A stretch of 64,000 bases of DNA from contig JNSD01000002.1 in assembly GCA_000754445.1 (NCBI GenBank), positions 1 through 64,000 of the forward strand, in the 5' to 3' direction. Under the pieces are notes generated by a model. That model had not been told where the DNA came from, ran no database searches, and worked only from the letters and a program-made list of their open reading frames with translations. Within the stretch, counting starts at the first letter, position 1. Each line of letters starts with the position of its first letter. Origin of the DNA: an actinobacterium acMicro-4 (GTDB lineage: Bacteria > Actinomycetota > Actinomycetes > Actinomycetales > Microbacteriaceae). A program made the translations under genes and the position numbers. Below are positions 50,200 to 58,355 of the stretch, piece after piece.

Positions 50200-51777
50200 G
50201 TGATAGGAGAGAGGGCGATGATGGCTGAGATTCCTCGACCGCAGCGACCCACGCCGCTCTCGACACTTCAGTTAGCCCGCACAGTGAATGCTCTCCACTC
50301 GGGCCCCGATGCCCTCGTAAACGGTGTTGCCCTCCACACGGGTCTCGTTCAGCCCGGGGATCTCTTCGCGGCACTTCCCGGTGCCAACCGCCACGGAATC
50401 GAATTTTGGCCAGAGGCCGCTGCCGCCGGGGCCACCGCGGTTCTTACTGACGCTGCTGGCGCCAGCCTGCTGCCGCAGACGATACCGACACTGGTGCTCG
50501 AATATCCCAGGGGCCACTTAGGCGCGATCGCTGCGGAGATTTATGGCACCGACGATGTTGGGTCTATGGCGATCGCTGCAGTGACGGGGACCAACGGGAA
50601 AACCTCTACGGCGTTTCTCTTGGACGCGCTCATGAGGGGTCTTGGCTGGACGACGGCGCTATCCACTACAGCTGAGCGCGTTGTTGCGGGCGTTCCCTAT
50701 ACGAGCACCCTGACGACACCTGAGGCCCCGGACATTCACGCCATGGTGGCACTGGCCAAAGAACAAGGCGTCAGTGGGCTTGCCATCGAGGTCAGTGCGC
50801 AGGCTCTAGAAAAAAACCGTCTGGATCGTGTGATGGTCGATGTTGCCGGGTTTACCAATTTGAGCCACGACCATTTTGAAGACTTTGGCAATATGGACCG
50901 TTACCTGGCGGCCAAGGCCGCCCTGTTTACGCCGGAGCGCTCTCACAAGGCCGTCATCTGCGTGGATACATCCTGGGGGCTAGCCCTCGCCCGCCAGAGC
51001 ACAATCCCGTTCTGGACCCTCGGCAGGGCCGGGTCGGAGGGCGTGGAGGGCGTGCCGCATTGGCGCTACGCGATTACCGGAATCTCGGGTGACACCACGA
51101 CGTTCTCGGTGAGCGGGCCCGAGGCTTGGGCCATCGAATTCTCGGCCCCCATCATGGGAGAGCACATGGTCGCCAACGCGGCTCTCGCCGCGGTGATGCT
51201 CATTCTTCAGGGGGTGCCACCCGCCGACATGGCCACGGCAATGGGCCCTGGCACTGCGGGAATTCCCGTGTTCGTTCCGGGGCGGGTTGAGCGAGTGTCG
51301 GGACCGACTGGCCCTCAAGTGTTTGTTGATGCAGGTCGTAGTGAAGACGCATACCGGGCCACGCTGGAAACTCTCCGCTCACGCACGACGGGTAAGCTGG
51401 TCATGGTGTGTGGCACCTCAGGGAATAGGGACGCCACCAAGCGGCCTCTCATGGGCGCGACTGCAGCACGACTTGCCGATGTGGTTATCGTCACTGATGA
51501 CGATCCCCGGCGCGAAGATCCGGCTGTGATTCGCGCCGGGCTGCTCGAGGGTGTGCGCTGTGTTGAGGGCTCCGTGTGGTTCGAAATTCCTGATCCGAGT
51601 GAGGCAATCCGCCACGCCATTTCGCTGGTGGGGGAGGGCGATAGCGTTCTCTGGAGTGGTCCAGGATCCCAGAACTACCGAGATATTTCTGGGCAGAAGG
51701 TTCCCTATTCAGCTCGGGATGAAGCGCGGGCTGCCCTCCGAGAAGCGGGCTATGCCCCGGAACAACCGCATGGTTGA
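50200..51777 (+). CDS. murE: MurE-like Mur ligase with divergent active-site motifs
   Basis: AAVTGTNGKTSTAFLLDALMRGLG, TTPEAPDIHAMVALAKEQGV, DVAGFTNLSHDHFEDF, KRPLMGATAARLADVVIVTDDDPRREDP; canonical DSR, EVSSHAL, DHLDFH, DYAHTPD and GKGHE not preserved. Confidence 0.85.
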   Translation: MIGERAMMAEIPRPQRPTPLSTLQLARTVNALHSGPDALVNGVALHTGLVQPGDLFAALPGANRHGIEFWPEAAAAGATAVLTDAAGASLLPQTIPTLVLEYPRGHLGAIAAEIYGTDDVGSMAIAAVTGTNGKTSTAFLLDALMRGLGWTTALSTTAERVVAGVPYTSTLTTPEAPDIHAMVALAKEQGVSGLAIEVSAQALEKNRLDRVMVDVAGFTNLSHDHFEDFGNMDRYLAAKAALFTPERSHKAVICVDTSWGLALARQSTIPFWTLGRAGSEGVEGVPHWRYAITGISGDTTTFSVSGPEAWAIEFSAPIMGEHMVANAALAAVMLILQGVPPADMATAMGPGTAGIPVFVPGRVERVSGPTGPQVFVDAGRSEDAYRATLETLRSRTTGKLVMVCGTSGNRDATKRPLMGATAARLADVVIVTDDDPRREDPAVIRAGLLEGVRCVEGSVWFEIPDPSEAIRHAISLVGEGDSVLWSGPGSQNYRDISGQKVPYSARDEARAALREAGYAPEQPHG

Positions 51778-52414
51778 GGTCACCCTTGACGAGCCGTGGA
51801 GTGACTGGGGTCGATCTGGGGGCATACTCGTCGCAGGAGAGCAGAGGCTGGCCTGGGAAGTCCCCACCATGTCACGCCGGCTCCTGGAGCGCGCACTTGA
51901 ATCGGTGCGCGCTCGCGTTGGCGCTGGGGTAAGCCTTGGCGAGGCTGTTGCAGGTGTGGTGCGTCCTGCCGAGCCTCACATACTCGAGGTTCATCGAGTG
52001 GGGGAGGGCGTACTCGTTATTGATGACACCGGCACGCTCGGAGTAAACGATGCCGCCACATCGCTCAAAATTGTGACGGGTCTCGCTGCGAGAGAACGAC
52101 GAGTGGTTGTCGCCGCGGGGGCGCTGGAGTTCGACGGAGAGTCAGACTATGACAACCTCGGGGCATTTGGGGCGTTGATGGTGCGACTCAACGTGGACCA
52201 GGTTTTTGCTGTTGGCCCCGAAGCCAGAGCGCTGTTTCTCTCGGTGGGACGGGAGGGTTCCTGGGATGGAGAGTCGCAGCACTGCGAGAGTGTCGAAGAC
52301 GCGTACGATGACATCCGTGCGTTTGTCCGGCCGGAGGATGTGGTACTCGTGATGGGTTCGACGGGGCAGTCGCTGCTTCCCCTCGCTCTGCGACTCGTGG
52401 AGGATCTCTCGTGA
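51770..52414 (+). CDS. Truncated MurF-like protein (C-terminal Mur ligase domain only)
   Basis: GVLVIDDTGTLGVNDAATSLKIVTGLAARERRVVVAAGALEFDG...DNLGAFGALMVRLNVDQVFAVGPEARALF...VRPEDVVLVMGSTGQSLLPLALRLVEDL follows the MurF C-terminal layout; no GxxGKT P-loop; sits in the murF slot. Start ATG 51752 or 51770 overlapping the murE stop. Confidence 0.75.
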   Translation: MVEVTLDEPWSDWGRSGGILVAGEQRLAWEVPTMSRRLLERALESVRARVGAGVSLGEAVAGVVRPAEPHILEVHRVGEGVLVIDDTGTLGVNDAATSLKIVTGLAARERRVVVAAGALEFDGESDYDNLGAFGALMVRLNVDQVFAVGPEARALFLSVGREGSWDGESQHCESVEDAYDDIRAFVRPEDVVLVMGSTGQSLLPLALRLVEDLS

Positions 52415-53508
52415 GGATTCTCTTGCTCGGTAGCGCTATCGCGCTGTTCTTTTCTCTATTCCTCACGCCGCTCTTCATTCGGCTCTTTGGGAAACTGGGG
52501 TGGGGACAGTTCATCCGACAGGATGGCCCCAAAACCCACTTCGTGAAGCGTGGCACACCCACGATGGGTGGCATTGTTATTTTGCTCGCCGTGGTCACCG
52601 GGTATTTCGGGGCGCACCTTATCGAGGGCGCACCGGTAACTCAGTCAGCGGTCCTCGTCATTGGGTTGATGGTCACCCTAGGTATTGTCGGCTTTTTGGA
52701 CGATTTTTCTAAAGTCCGCCGCCAGCAGTCTTTGGGGCTCAGTCCGCGAGCGAAGGTCATCGGGCAAATCGTGGCCTCTGTCGCGTTTGCGGTGCTGGCC
52801 GTGTCCTTTCCCGATAAGGACAACCAGACACCGGCGGCACTGGGTATCTCCGTGTTCCGCAACGCCGATCTGGTGTCCTTTGTTGGGCTCGGCCAGATAG
52901 GCGCAATTATTGCCTTTGCCGTGTGGGCGAGCTTGATCATTGTGGGAACATCAAACGCGGTCAATCTCACCGATGGCCTGGACGGGCTCGCCAGTGGGTC
53001 AACCATCCTGGTTTTCGTCGCCTACGTCATGATCACCTTCTGGCAGTTCAACCAATCGTGTTTCCGCGGTGTGGTCGATGAAGAGAACGTTTACAAGTGT
53101 TATGAGGTGCGCGATTCACTGGAGTTGACCTCTGTCGCGGCGATCATTTCGGCAAGCCTCATTGGTTTCCTCTGGTGGAATACCTCGCCAGCAAAAATCT
53201 TCATGGGCGACACCGGGTCGTTGAGTCTTGGTGGCGGTGTGGCAGCCTTGGCGCTGTTCTCCCGAACCGAAGTCCTGCTGCCCATTGTCGGTGGACTGTT
53301 CGTCATTTTGACGGGCTCCGTCATTATTCAACGCCTGTATTTCAAGGCAACCGGCGGAAAACGGGTCTTTTACTCGTCCCCTCTGCACCACCACTACGAA
53401 ATCAAAGGCTGGGCTGAGGTCACCATTGTCGTCAGGTTCTGGCTCATCGCTGGCCTCTTTGCCGCTGCGGGTGCAGGAGTGTTCTACTTGGAGTGGCTCA
53501 GCCGCTGA
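52411..53508 (+). CDS. mraY: Phospho-MurNAc-pentapeptide transferase MraY
   Basis: KRGTPTMGGIVIL; GFLDDFSKVRRQQSLGLSPRAK; GTSNAVNLTDGLDGLASG; FMGDTGSLSLGG; PLHHHYEIKGWAE. Confidence 0.95.
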   Translation: MRILLLGSAIALFFSLFLTPLFIRLFGKLGWGQFIRQDGPKTHFVKRGTPTMGGIVILLAVVTGYFGAHLIEGAPVTQSAVLVIGLMVTLGIVGFLDDFSKVRRQQSLGLSPRAKVIGQIVASVAFAVLAVSFPDKDNQTPAALGISVFRNADLVSFVGLGQIGAIIAFAVWASLIIVGTSNAVNLTDGLDGLASGSTILVFVAYVMITFWQFNQSCFRGVVDEENVYKCYEVRDSLELTSVAAIISASLIGFLWWNTSPAKIFMGDTGSLSLGGGVAALALFSRTEVLLPIVGGLFVILTGSVIIQRLYFKATGGKRVFYSSPLHHHYEIKGWAEVTIVVRFWLIAGLFAAAGAGVFYLEWLSR

Positions 53509-54500
53509 TGGCCTCTTCGCTGGACTCGCTGACTAGTTGGCATAGTGATTGGTCTGGCCTCAGGGTCGTAGTCGTTGGCCTCGACGCCACCGGCTTTGCC
53601 GTTGTCGACACGTTGGTTGAGCTGGGCGCAGAAGTACTGGCTGTTGCACCGGATGCCAAGAGCGATGTCGTGCGGATTAGCGAAGTCATCGGCGCCGGAG
53701 TTCACGTCTCTGGCGATGTCCTCTCGAGGGTGCAGGCAGCGCTTGGTTACACTGCGAATCTCGCCATCGTCTCTCCTGATGTTTCCAGTGACGACCCCGT
53801 CGCGCGCGCGCTTCTGGGAGGAGGGGTTCCAGTCTGGTCGGATGTGGATTTCGCGTGGAGAGTCCGAGACAAGAACGACGTTGTAGCGCAGTGGATACTC
53901 GTCGTCGGAGAGACCGACGGGCCGCGTATTGCTGATCTAGCAGCCCGGATACTGGTGGCTGATGGTCGTAGTGCCCGGCACGTCGGGCTGGAGAGCGCCC
54001 CACTACTGGATGCACTTCGTGACCCTGAGCCCTACACAACACTCATTATTGTGGCGGGGTCGACCGGCGTCGGCTGGTGGCAGCGCTATCCCGAGGCGCT
54101 GCGCAGACCCGTGCTCACGGTGTCCCTGGGAGATGCCGGCGTGACTCCCAGCGGCGTGCGGTTTGATGCCACGACCACAGCCTGTGTGTATCGCCGCAGC
54201 GTCGGCCCCACCGAAGACATGGTGAAAGACGCGGATGTACTCGAGGGCGCCCGGGCAATTGGGATTGGACTGGATTCTCCGGGGATGAGCGATCTAGGTC
54301 TCGTGGAGGGCATTCTCTGCGACCGAGCCTTCCTCGAGGATCGGGAGCACCAGGCCCTCGAAATTTCGACTACCGAGGAGCTCGAGGAGGCCGGGTGGGT
54401 GATACCCGATGACCTACCCACCATCCTGGCGGCCGTGGCTATCGCGCGTTCCTATGACGTTTCACCCGCGCTGATAGCGGGAGTGGTTACCCTTCCCTAG
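53493..54500 (+). CDS. Degenerate MurD-like protein (no P-loop, no C-terminal domain)
   Basis: Located between mraY and ftsW; MurD-like N-term LRVVVVGLDATGFAVVDTLVELGAEVLAV; P-loop position reads LVVGETDGPRIADLAARIL; VKDADVLEGARAIGIGLDSPGMSDLGLVEGILCDRAFLEDR resembles actinobacterial MurD central domain; ends where the C-terminal domain should begin. Confidence 0.78.
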   Translation: MAQPLMASSLDSLTSWHSDWSGLRVVVVGLDATGFAVVDTLVELGAEVLAVAPDAKSDVVRISEVIGAGVHVSGDVLSRVQAALGYTANLAIVSPDVSSDDPVARALLGGGVPVWSDVDFAWRVRDKNDVVAQWILVVGETDGPRIADLAARILVADGRSARHVGLESAPLLDALRDPEPYTTLIIVAGSTGVGWWQRYPEALRRPVLTVSLGDAGVTPSGVRFDATTTACVYRRSVGPTEDMVKDADVLEGARAIGIGLDSPGMSDLGLVEGILCDRAFLEDREHQALEISTTEELEEAGWVIPDDLPTILAAVAIARSYDVSPALIAGVVTLP

Positions 54501-54595: not shown

Positions 54596-55846
54596 GTGCA
54601 CAGTGACCGTGAGGAAGGTGGCGATGTGACAACAGTCGTGCGACCACCGTCTCATTCTCCACCAAACAAGCCCCGCATGGTGGTCAGCGTGAGGCGTCTC
54701 TTTCAGGCGGAATCTGGCGAATATGTAGTGATGGTGGCGACCGTCTTGTTTTTGGTGGCCTTTGGTTTGGTCATGGTGCTCTCGTCGTCCTTTGTTGGTT
54801 CGGCGCTTGGCAACGACGGGAACTTTTTTGCCACTTTCTTGAGGCAGGCGTTCTGGGCGGTGGTGGGCATTCCGCTCATGCTCATCGTGTCTCGACTGAA
54901 GCCCATCCAAATCAAGCGTGCTACCCCGGCGATATTTTTGGCCGCTTTGGTGTTCCAGGCGCTCGTCTTCACCGCCCTGGGAATCACCTCTGGAGGTAAC
55001 CGAAACTGGGTCAACATTGCCGGATTCAGTGGCCAGCCCTCGGAGCTTGTGAAGGTTGCGCTGATCGCGTGGATGGCGGCGATACTGTCGGATCGCCTTG
55101 ATCGTCTCCACGACTACCGTGTTCTTCTCCGTCCGCTCGCCGTGGGTGTCGCAGTGGCGCTCGCCCTGGTCATTGCGGGTCGCGACCTGGGAACTGTGGG
55201 CATCATGACGATGATCGCCCTAGGCGTTTCATTTTTAGCCGGCGTTCGGCTGTCTCACCTGGTGGCAGTGATGGGTGCCTTGGGGGCTTTTCTGGGGATA
55301 ACTGCGCTCTTGAGTCCCTCGCGTGTGGCGCGCATCATGACGTGGTTCTCCGGGTGCACTGAGGCGGACTATCTCACAACGTGTTGGCAGTCCGTTCACT
55401 CGACTTATGCCCTGGGCTCTGGTGGCTTACTCGGGGTAGGACTTGGCAACTCTCGCGCCAAATGGTCATGGTTGCCAGCAGCCGAGACCGACTTCATTTT
55501 TGCCATTGTTGGCGAGGAGCTTGGCCTTGCGGGGACCACACTGGTGATTGTTGCCTTCGTTGTCCTCGCCATCGCGATGACGCGGATGGTTCGAGCACAG
55601 CAAGACCCCTTCGCGAGAATTGTTACGGGGGGTGTCATGGTGTGGCTGATTGGTCAGGCGCTGGTCAACATTGCGGTGGTGCTCGAGCTTTTGCCTGTTC
55701 TGGGGGTTCCGCTGCCGTTCATGTCAGTGGGCGGTTCGGCGCTGCTCTCGTCGTTGGCCGCTATTGGTGTGGTGATGGCTCTCAATCGCGCCGGGTCTGA
55801 GTCAGTGAGCGACTACCGCGCACGACGAAGGGCCGGCACTCGATGA
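54596..55846 (+). CDS. ftsW: SEDS glycosyltransferase FtsW
   Basis: Multi-TM; GGNRNWVNIAGFSGQPSELVKVALIAWMA; AETDFIFAIVGEELGLAGT; VPLPFMSVGGSALLSSLAAIGVVMAL. Confidence 0.95.
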   Translation: MHSDREEGGDVTTVVRPPSHSPPNKPRMVVSVRRLFQAESGEYVVMVATVLFLVAFGLVMVLSSSFVGSALGNDGNFFATFLRQAFWAVVGIPLMLIVSRLKPIQIKRATPAIFLAALVFQALVFTALGITSGGNRNWVNIAGFSGQPSELVKVALIAWMAAILSDRLDRLHDYRVLLRPLAVGVAVALALVIAGRDLGTVGIMTMIALGVSFLAGVRLSHLVAVMGALGAFLGITALLSPSRVARIMTWFSGCTEADYLTTCWQSVHSTYALGSGGLLGVGLGNSRAKWSWLPAAETDFIFAIVGEELGLAGTTLVIVAFVVLAIAMTRMVRAQQDPFARIVTGGVMVWLIGQALVNIAVVLELLPVLGVPLPFMSVGGSALLSSLAAIGVVMALNRAGSESVSDYRARRRAGTR

Positions 55847-56943
55847 CTCGAGTTCTTTTGGCGGGCGGAGGCACCGCCGGCCACGTGAACCCCCTGCTTG
55901 CTGTGGCGAATGAGCTTGTGCGTCAGGGTCGCTGCAACCCCGCCGAGATCATCGTGGTCGGCACCCGAGGGGGCCTGGAATCCCGTCTGGTTCCGGCGGC
56001 CGGATTCGCGCTGGCGACTACCCAACGGCTTCCTCTGCCGAGAAAACTGAGCCTTGGTGCGCTGGTGTTCTGGCCTCGTTTCGCCATTGCGGTGGGCAAG
56101 GTTGTCTGGTTGATTATGCGCCACAGGGCCGAGCTGGTTGCCGGATTTGGCGGTTATGCCTCGGCGCCCAGCTATGTTGCTGCCTGGCTCACCAGGACTC
56201 CGCTCGTGATCCACGAAGCCAATGCGGTTCCGGGCTTTGCGAACAGGCTCGGTTCGCGACTCACGCGGTGTGTGGTAACCACGTTCAGCCAGACCCAGTT
56301 GCCCCACGCCACAGTCTTGGGCATGCCCATGGCGAGGGCCATTACCCACCCTTCGTCTTCCCCCAATGCCTCCCGGGCGCGGAGCGCATTTGGGCTGAAG
56401 CCAGGGAAAAAGACGCTCCTGGTCACCGGCGGCTCTCAGGGTGCCCAGTCGCTGAACGCGACTCTGGCCGCTGTGGTGGAGGACATACTGGCTCTGGATT
56501 GGCAGATACTGCATATCGTGGGGAGTAAGAATCCGCTACCGCCGTCTTCTCCGGGGTATGTCGCTCTGTCCTATTGCTACCGAATGGATGTGGCTTTTGC
56601 GGCGGCCAGCGCGGTGATTTCCCGCGCTGGTGCGGCGACTGTGTCGGAGATTCAGATCGTCGGTATACCCGCAGTGTTCGTTCCCTATCCGGTGGGCAAC
56701 GGGGAACAAGAAAAAAACGCCGCCGACAGCCTTGCCACTGGGGCGGCTGTTATGGTGCTCGATCGGGATTTCACGCCGGAGCGTTGTCGAGCCGTGGTCC
56801 TGCCGTTGCTCGCCGATGACACGGCGCTGGCACGTATGCGCACCAACGCGATTGGCCTCGGGCGCCCCCAGGCAGCGGAGGCATTTGTTGAGACCATGAT
56901 GGAGGCGCTGTCATCACGGCGAAGCAAGGGTTTGGGCGCGTGA
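55843..56943 (+). CDS. murG: MurG glycosyltransferase
   Basis: VLLAGGGTAGHVNPLLAVANEL; LVTGGSQGAQSLNATL; ISRAGAATVSEIQIVGIPAVFVPYPVGNGEQEKNA. Confidence 0.94.
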   Translation: MTRVLLAGGGTAGHVNPLLAVANELVRQGRCNPAEIIVVGTRGGLESRLVPAAGFALATTQRLPLPRKLSLGALVFWPRFAIAVGKVVWLIMRHRAELVAGFGGYASAPSYVAAWLTRTPLVIHEANAVPGFANRLGSRLTRCVVTTFSQTQLPHATVLGMPMARAITHPSSSPNASRARSAFGLKPGKKTLLVTGGSQGAQSLNATLAAVVEDILALDWQILHIVGSKNPLPPSSPGYVALSYCYRMDVAFAAASAVISRAGAATVSEIQIVGIPAVFVPYPVGNGEQEKNAADSLATGAAVMVLDRDFTPERCRAVVLPLLADDTALARMRTNAIGLGRPQAAEAFVETMMEALSSRRSKGLGA

Positions 56944-58355
56944 AACCACTACCCGGCGGTCCACTTCCCGGAAGCATTTCCCGGGCGCATTTCATTGGAA
57001 TTGCGGGTTCCGGCATGAGCGGCATTGCGCGGGTCATGGCGCAGCAGGGAGTGATGGTCAGCGGCTCCGACCGCTCGGACTCGGAAATCGTTGACTCGCT
57101 GCGCGATGCCGGCATCACCGTGTTCATTGGTCACGATGCGAGCCACCTGGGCGATGCCGACACGGTTGTTGCCTCAAGTGCCGTCAGAGACGACAACCCT
57201 GAACTGGTGGAAGCCTATTCCAGAGGACTCGCGGTGATTCATCGCTCTACTGCGCTGCGCTTCGTCATGCGGGGCAAAACAGTCCTGGCGGTTGCGGGTT
57301 CTCACGGAAAGACAACCTCTACTGCAATGCTCGCCAGCGCGCTCCATCGCGCTGGGATTGATGCGGGTTTTGTCAATGGCGGTGTGGTGAGCCAGTGGGG
57401 CGTCTCATCACGCAACGGCTCGGCCGAACTCTTTGCGATTGAGGCTGACGAGTCAGACCGTTCGTTCTTGACCTATCTCCCATCCACAGTGCTGGTGACG
57501 AATGTCGCGCCCGACCATCTCGATTTTTACGGCGGGATGGACGCTATCTATGACGCCTTTGAAGCTTTTGCCAGAACGGCTAGCCACGGTGTTGTGCTCT
57601 GTGCGGACGACGAGGGCACGAGAGAACTGGCCTCCAGGCTCTCCGATGCTTCTGGGGTGAGAACCTACGGGGTGTCCCCGCATGCTGACTTTCGGATTCT
57701 TGGTATTGAACCTGCGCCGTTTGCTCGCGCGCGGATCACCTATGTCGGTGAGGAAGCCGAGATTGTTCTCGCGGTTCCTGGTCGGCTCAATGCCCTGAAC
57801 GCTGTTGGGGTAGCGGGGATGCTCGTTGATGCCGGACTCACACTCACGGAGGCTACCCATGCAGTGAGTGGGTTTAGTGGAGCTGATCGTCGATTCCAGT
57901 TCCACGGTGAGCGTGGCGGGGTCCGCTTCTTCGATGACCATGCTCATCACCCCACCGAGGTTGCTGCCGCGCTGGAGACGGCTCGAGCGGTCGTGGGAAG
58001 TGGTCGCGTCATTACGATGTTTCAACCTCATCTTTTCTCCAGGACCCAGTACATGTCAGCAGAGTTGGCTAGCGCATTTGCCGAGGGCAGTGACCACACG
58101 ATATTTCTCGATATTTTTGGATCGAGGGAAGACCCCATCGAGGGGGTGAGCACCCAGTTGATCCTCGAGAAGCTTCCGGCTGGGTATTCCCATGACTACG
58201 AGCCCGATTGGGCGCGTGCCTGCGAGCGTGCCGTAGCGCTGGCTCAACCCGGTGACATTATCCTCACCATGTCCACGGGTGATCTGTATCAAATCGTTCC
58301 CCAACTGTTGGCCACGAAGCAGGCCTTGGACGAAGGCGACCATGCGGCGCCCTGA
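56940..58355 (+). CDS. murC: UDP-N-acetylmuramate--L-alanine ligase MurC
   Basis: HFIGIAGSGMSGIARVM; AVAGSHGKTTSTAML; EADESDRSFL; VTNVAPDHLDFY; FFDDHAHHPTEVAAAL; FQPHLFSRT. Confidence 0.94.
   Translation: MKPLPGGPLPGSISRAHFIGIAGSGMSGIARVMAQQGVMVSGSDRSDSEIVDSLRDAGITVFIGHDASHLGDADTVVASSAVRDDNPELVEAYSRGLAVIHRSTALRFVMRGKTVLAVAGSHGKTTSTAMLASALHRAGIDAGFVNGGVVSQWGVSSRNGSAELFAIEADESDRSFLTYLPSTVLVTNVAPDHLDFYGGMDAIYDAFEAFARTASHGVVLCADDEGTRELASRLSDASGVRTYGVSPHADFRILGIEPAPFARARITYVGEEAEIVLAVPGRLNALNAVGVAGMLVDAGLTLTEATHAVSGFSGADRRFQFHGERGGVRFFDDHAHHPTEVAAALETARAVVGSGRVITMFQPHLFSRTQYMSAELASAFAEGSDHTIFLDIFGSREDPIEGVSTQLILEKLPAGYSHDYEPDWARACERAVALAQPGDIILTMSTGDLYQIVPQLLATKQALDEGDHAAP

Follow-up and report, generated by a model that had tools for sequence, protein, structure and literature searches.

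The window analyzed here, a stretch of 64 kb, comes from a genome of 1.08 Mb (77.75% complete) that belongs to Pontimonas, a marine bacterial genus of the family Microbacteriaceae. The dcw cluster in the window has the standard gene order throughout, with nothing rearranged, as the original prediction had described. Within this cluster, the murF and murD slots are occupied by stubs, here termed pseudo-murF and pseudo-murD (Table 1). The pseudo-murF gene overlaps murE by 8 nt and mraY by 4 nt, and pseudo-murD is joined to mraY by a TGATG coupling. The starts of the stubs, 51770 for pseudo-murF and 53508 for pseudo-murD, were chosen from a comparison of orthologues and are likely, not certain.

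Table 1. Genes from murE to murC in the window
Gene	Position	Strand	Description
murE	50200..51777	+	Full-length, three domains, intact P-loop; recognition motif altered to GPGSQ
pseudo-murF	51770..52414	+	214 aa; end of the MurF middle domain and C domain
mraY	52411..53508	+	Intact
pseudo-murD	53508..54500	+	330 aa; N domain and middle domain without P-loop and catalytic residues; no C domain
ftsW	54596..55846	+	Neighbor, intact
murG	55843..56943	+	Neighbor, intact
murC	56940..58355	+	Intact; TIGR01082 403 bits, above cut-off

The pseudo-MurF product matches a single Pfam domain, Mur_ligase_C (PF02875, 36.6 bits). Against the MurF model TIGR01143 it covers only model positions 236–411 of 418 and scores 33 bits, where the cut-off is 288.6. 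The N domain is missing, the middle domain is incomplete and the NDAYNASP and KSS motifs are lost, which together with the low score places pseudo-MurF outside the MurF ligases. The C domain is the minimal conserved unit of this protein, the part preceding it being gone in several species. An AlphaFold model built from genus sequences only is confident (mean pLDDT 87.6), and its top match among solved structures is MurF (4qf5).

Pseudo-MurD likewise falls outside the MurD ligases. Its match to TIGR01087 is limited to residues 24–185, corresponding to model positions 1–156 of 441, and scores 40.6 bits (cut-off 211.95); a domain search of the product returned neither Mur_ligase_M nor Mur_ligase_C. 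The middle domain has lost the TGTNGKTTT P-loop and the DHLDWHG segment, along with the conserved Lys of the AK motif, and there is no C domain. These losses are concentrated in the ATP core and the C domain, not spread evenly: in this genome, the N domain retains 33/39 family-invariant positions and the outer middle domain 39/47, as opposed to 13/47 in the ATP core and 0/57 in the C domain. The AlphaFold model, again from genus sequences only, is confident (mean pLDDT 85.5) and has MurD (3lk7) as its top solved-structure match. The truncations reported from the letters alone, about 215–220 aa without a P-loop in the murF slot and 335 aa without a P-loop or C-terminal domain in the murD slot, are therefore real, the murD product being likely slightly shorter than first given.

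MurE, also described at first as degenerate, is a different case. That it has diverged is correct, as 54 of 207 family-invariant positions are changed (153 are kept) and the GPGHE motif near residues 487–491 reads GPGSQ in every congener whose sequence spans it. Degeneracy, on the other hand, is ruled out by the presence of Mur_ligase, Mur_ligase_M and Mur_ligase_C, all above the Pfam cut-off, by the P-loop GTNGKT within an intact ATP machinery, and by a score of 319 bits against TIGR01085 (cut-off 257), which identifies the protein as a MurE ligase. MurE thus looks like an active enzyme and stands outside the set of stubs. Both GPGHE and the DNPR motif of E. coli MurE are in contact with the residue at position three of the stem peptide. 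The MurE of the window carries DDPR in addition to GPGSQ, a combination that suggests a change in the third stem-peptide residue. Homoserine occurs in the peptidoglycan of the relative Rhodoluna but not in that of P. salivibrio (PMC4156110, Table 4), a difference that fits, but does not prove, an altered MurE specificity.

Candidate replacement ligases and their distribution

A search of the genome for full-length Mur ligases, suggested along with the original prediction, recovered six proteins with a Mur ligase middle domain: MurE, MurC, FolC, a MurT-like protein, a MurD and a MurF-like protein of 519 aa. No canonical dcw-type MurF is found among these six Mur_ligase_M proteins. The MurD (L066:5545-7008), here termed MurD2, scores 274 bits against the MurD cut-off of 211.95 and lies in the order MurL homologue, MurD2, rph. 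The MurL homologue scores 313 bits where the NF041275 cut-off is 700, the ORF being partial and the model specific to Xanthomonadales. MurI gives no match in this genome and none above cut-off in any Pontimonas genome, and is above cut-off in 39/41 other genomes of the order; MurL shows the reverse pattern, occurring in 17/18 congeners and 0/41 of the other genomes. In two relatives (G042 and G039), murI lies beside rph, at the place taken in Pontimonas by murL-murD2, and the pair therefore occupies the murI site. A further member of the family with a reduced genome (G044; 0.9 Mb, one contig) has neither MurI nor MurL detected.

The MurD2-MurL pathway for D-Glu is known from Xanthomonas and also from Micromonospora and Salinispora (PMC8788868, PMC5808125); Microbacteriaceae are not listed in its published distribution. 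As in Xanthomonas, the Pontimonas murL adjoins a murD2, in this case one above the MurD cut-off, and MurI is absent, so that the genes can be assigned to this type. Pontimonas MurD2 shares the Glu reported at position 197 of Xanthomonas MurD2. Unlike the Xanthomonas enzyme, in which the specificity residue is reported to be Arg358 (Lys348 in E. coli MurD), it has Leu at that place (DSLATN). Ligation of L-Glu and its epimerization by MurD2-MurL is a candidate route for D-Glu addition in Pontimonas.

In the 519-aa MurF-like protein, hydrophobic segments replace the N domain. The protein retains a P-loop, GSYGKTSTK, as well as DDTYNSNP, a motif of the MurF type, and its gene is located between an alpha/beta-hydrolase gene and ddl (cassette L065:8671-12191, G000:C12). 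This hydrolase-membrane MurF-Ddl cassette is conserved in four actinobacterial lineages. The P-loop, the C-domain motif, the linkage to ddl and the fact that its other carriers are without a dcw murF mark the membrane MurF as a probable functional MurF. No description of the cassette was found in the literature searched, which omits most subscription journals.

The rest of the phylum provides natural controls, drawn from an uneven sample. In MurL genomes elsewhere in the Actinomycetota, murD is absent between mraY and ftsW in 19/19 cases, and in genomes elsewhere that carry the membrane MurF, murF is absent between murE and mraY in 15/15 cases. Where both replacements are present (families f69 and f74), the cluster reads murE-mraY-ftsW, murD and murF being both absent, and genomes with one replacement lack only the corresponding dcw gene. 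Clean deletion is thus the usual outcome after replacement, and Pontimonas alone, among the lineages checked, kept stubs. The co-distribution of each replacement with the loss of the matching dcw gene supports the assigned functions. In one genome from another actinobacterial family, outside the 19 (G136, L278), murL-murD2 lies inside the dcw cluster itself and occupies the murD slot, with mraY on one side and ftsW on the other.

With homology, genomic context and co-distribution as their basis, MurL and the membrane MurF are candidates for the functions assigned to them here, and it is very probable that the replacements carry the MurD and MurF activities. The displacement of catalysis to other parts of the genome is well supported. 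The original prediction had offered two explanations for the dcw copies. The first, that canonical murD, murE and murF are encoded elsewhere and that the dcw copies became scaffolds or regulators of lipid II synthesis, holds to the extent that enzymes are indeed encoded elsewhere (murL-murD2 and the membrane MurF); it fails for MurE, and the replacements are not canonical. A scaffold or regulator role for the two stubs would be compatible with the data. The second, an unusual stem peptide resulting from missing ligases, is not needed, since candidates for both D-Glu and D-Ala-D-Ala addition are present; a possible change of the third residue through the altered MurE motif is a different question.

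Retention of the stubs across Pontimonas

Both stubs are present in 19/19 Pontimonas genomes, the window genome included, and their catalytic parts are lost in all congeners. Among the named records that hold the nearest relatives of this murD stub are metagenome and single-cell genomes of Pontimonas. At the loci checked in other Microbacteriaceae, MurF is full-length with a P-loop in 65/65 (466–489 aa) and MurD is full-length with a P-loop in 66/66. Genome streamlining was considered as a cause and rejected, as other small members of the family (0.9–1.5 Mb) keep a full-size MurF-type match and are without MurL and the membrane MurF.

For the stubs, dN/dS ranges from 0.047 to 0.121 in five species pairs (bootstrap upper limits ≤0.25; Fisher p ≤7e-10), similar to the range for MurE and MurG; more distant pairs are saturated, and conclusions from dN/dS are for this reason limited to the five closer pairs. 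Compared at equal MurE divergence, catalytic MurD and MurF are better conserved than the stubs, which are thus under a constraint that is relaxed, yet clearly present. With catalytic residues lost and the protein under purifying selection, both stubs have the sequence characteristics of pseudoenzymes, and they are probably functional proteins.

Several other explanations for the stubs have to be weighed against this. An assembly or binning artefact that conceals full-length MurF and MurD, named at the outset as an outcome that would overturn the prediction, has a negligible chance of being correct: the window genome is incomplete, but the same stub arrangement recurs in every Pontimonas genome, one of which consists of just one contig (1,760,810 bp). 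The faster amino-acid change of the stubs relative to catalytic homologues might also indicate pseudogenes part-way through a slow decay and surviving by chance. This is very improbable given that dN/dS is far below 1 in each of the five pairs and that pseudo-MurD persists in congeners down to 36% identity. In addition, the frames are open in all genomes of the genus except G001, in which pseudo-murD is broken along with several other genes. Presence throughout the genus and purifying selection together indicate that the stubs are neither an artefact nor plain decay, in agreement with the initial view of them as retained proteins. A related proposal is that the ORFs are kept for read-through coupling from murE to mraY and from mraY to ftsW, the proteins themselves being idle. 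The ORFs do overlap their neighbors at both ends, or nearly so, and the length of pseudo-MurF differs among Pontimonas species from 147 to 214 aa, as a spacer would allow. Selection at the amino-acid level comparable to that on MurE and MurG would not be expected of a spacer, however, and weakens this proposal; nor would genus-specific fixed residues, such as the ten pseudo-MurF positions that are fixed across the genus and nearly missing in canonical MurF. In other lineages, moreover, mraY directly follows murE and is directly followed by ftsW, and we regard coupling alone as improbable.

A role for pseudo-MurD as a precursor sensor is somewhat easier to envisage, though still unlikely. Through an N domain that binds UDP-MurNAc, the protein would respond to the amount of precursor and tune MurD2, MraY or flux. 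Consistent with such a role, the N domain is, with the outer middle domain, the best-kept part of the protein, and most congeners retain the GxGxTGF and SPG motifs. Conservation of the nucleotide-binding motifs is not strict, however: they read GLD and SPD in this genome, and the G of SPG is present in 61% of the genus. This incomplete conservation of the nucleotide-binding glycines weakens the sensor explanation, which also leaves pseudo-MurF, with no N domain, unaccounted for. We also considered that the two stubs might together make up one composite N-M-C pseudo-ligase.

A proposed scaffolding role and its implications

We favor, with a probability of roughly 0.6, an explanation in which catalysis was displaced and the stubs were kept as docking or scaffolding pseudoenzymes. 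In the Pontimonas stem lineage, MurD2-MurL, placed at the former murI site, would have taken over the addition of D-Glu from MurI and the dcw MurD, and the membrane-anchored MurF encoded beside ddl would have taken over that of D-Ala-D-Ala from the dcw MurF. The displaced dcw copies could then have lost the ATP site, catalytic residues and whole domains, while the leftover folds, namely the N and outer middle domains of MurD and the C domain of MurF, were kept as pseudoenzymes. The stubs may continue to hold the original ligase contacts with MurE, MraY, MurG or FtsW as the new ligases perform the chemistry. Four points favor scaffolding: each stub retains folded parts that are not catalytic, both lie within a coupled operon between MurE, MraY and FtsW, both show constraint at the protein level, and binding of Mur ligases to MurG is known (PMC6420597). 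On its own, the choice of scaffolding over sensing or coupling is an even one. The more specific proposal, in which the two dead stubs are dedicated to lipid II synthesis as its non-catalytic scaffold or regulator, with the structural role split from the chemistry, is tentative and falls somewhat short of even odds. Other lineages with the same replacements have dropped these dcw genes without ill effect, and a scaffold is therefore not generally required.

Pseudoenzymes as such are already known. The stubs share operon slots, clear homology and folds with the canonical MurD and MurF of Microbacteriaceae, and differ from them in lacking the P-loop, catalytic residues and one to two domains. 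A precedent for contacts of the proposed kind exists in the MurE-MurF/MurG complex of Bordetella pertussis, in which Mur ligases bind MurG (PMC6420597); unlike the Pontimonas stubs, the ligases in this case are active, and no inactive Mur scaffold is described there. PAP11, a MurE-like protein of the plastid-encoded RNA polymerase, is found among the structural matches of the pseudo-MurF model (8r6s_Q, 9epc_Q). In this protein, a Mur-ligase fold acts as one subunit of a larger complex. The likeness is seen in the fold and need not extend to function; PAP11 belongs to a transcription complex of plant plastids, retains a full-length Mur fold and has MurE as its parent. In its main text, the paper on the P. 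salivibrio genome describes the peptidoglycan genes as mostly typical and makes no mention of mur or dcw (PMC6106888). Nothing relevant on inactive Mur ligases or a retained stub pair was found in the literature searched. To that extent the retained stub pair and the membrane MurF cassette are new here; the MurL-MurD2 pathway itself is known, and Pontimonas differs from the other MurL genomes examined, in which the dcw murD is absent, in keeping the displaced gene as a stub.

The comparison set points to the hydrolase-MurF-Ddl cassette as a recurrent substitute for the dcw MurF in Actinomycetota. Whether Mur ligases form a physical complex is a long-standing question, and tests of it are difficult, since the catalysis for which the genes are needed is essential. 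Pontimonas is a natural case in which the two roles come apart, with the active sites gone and the folds still under selection.
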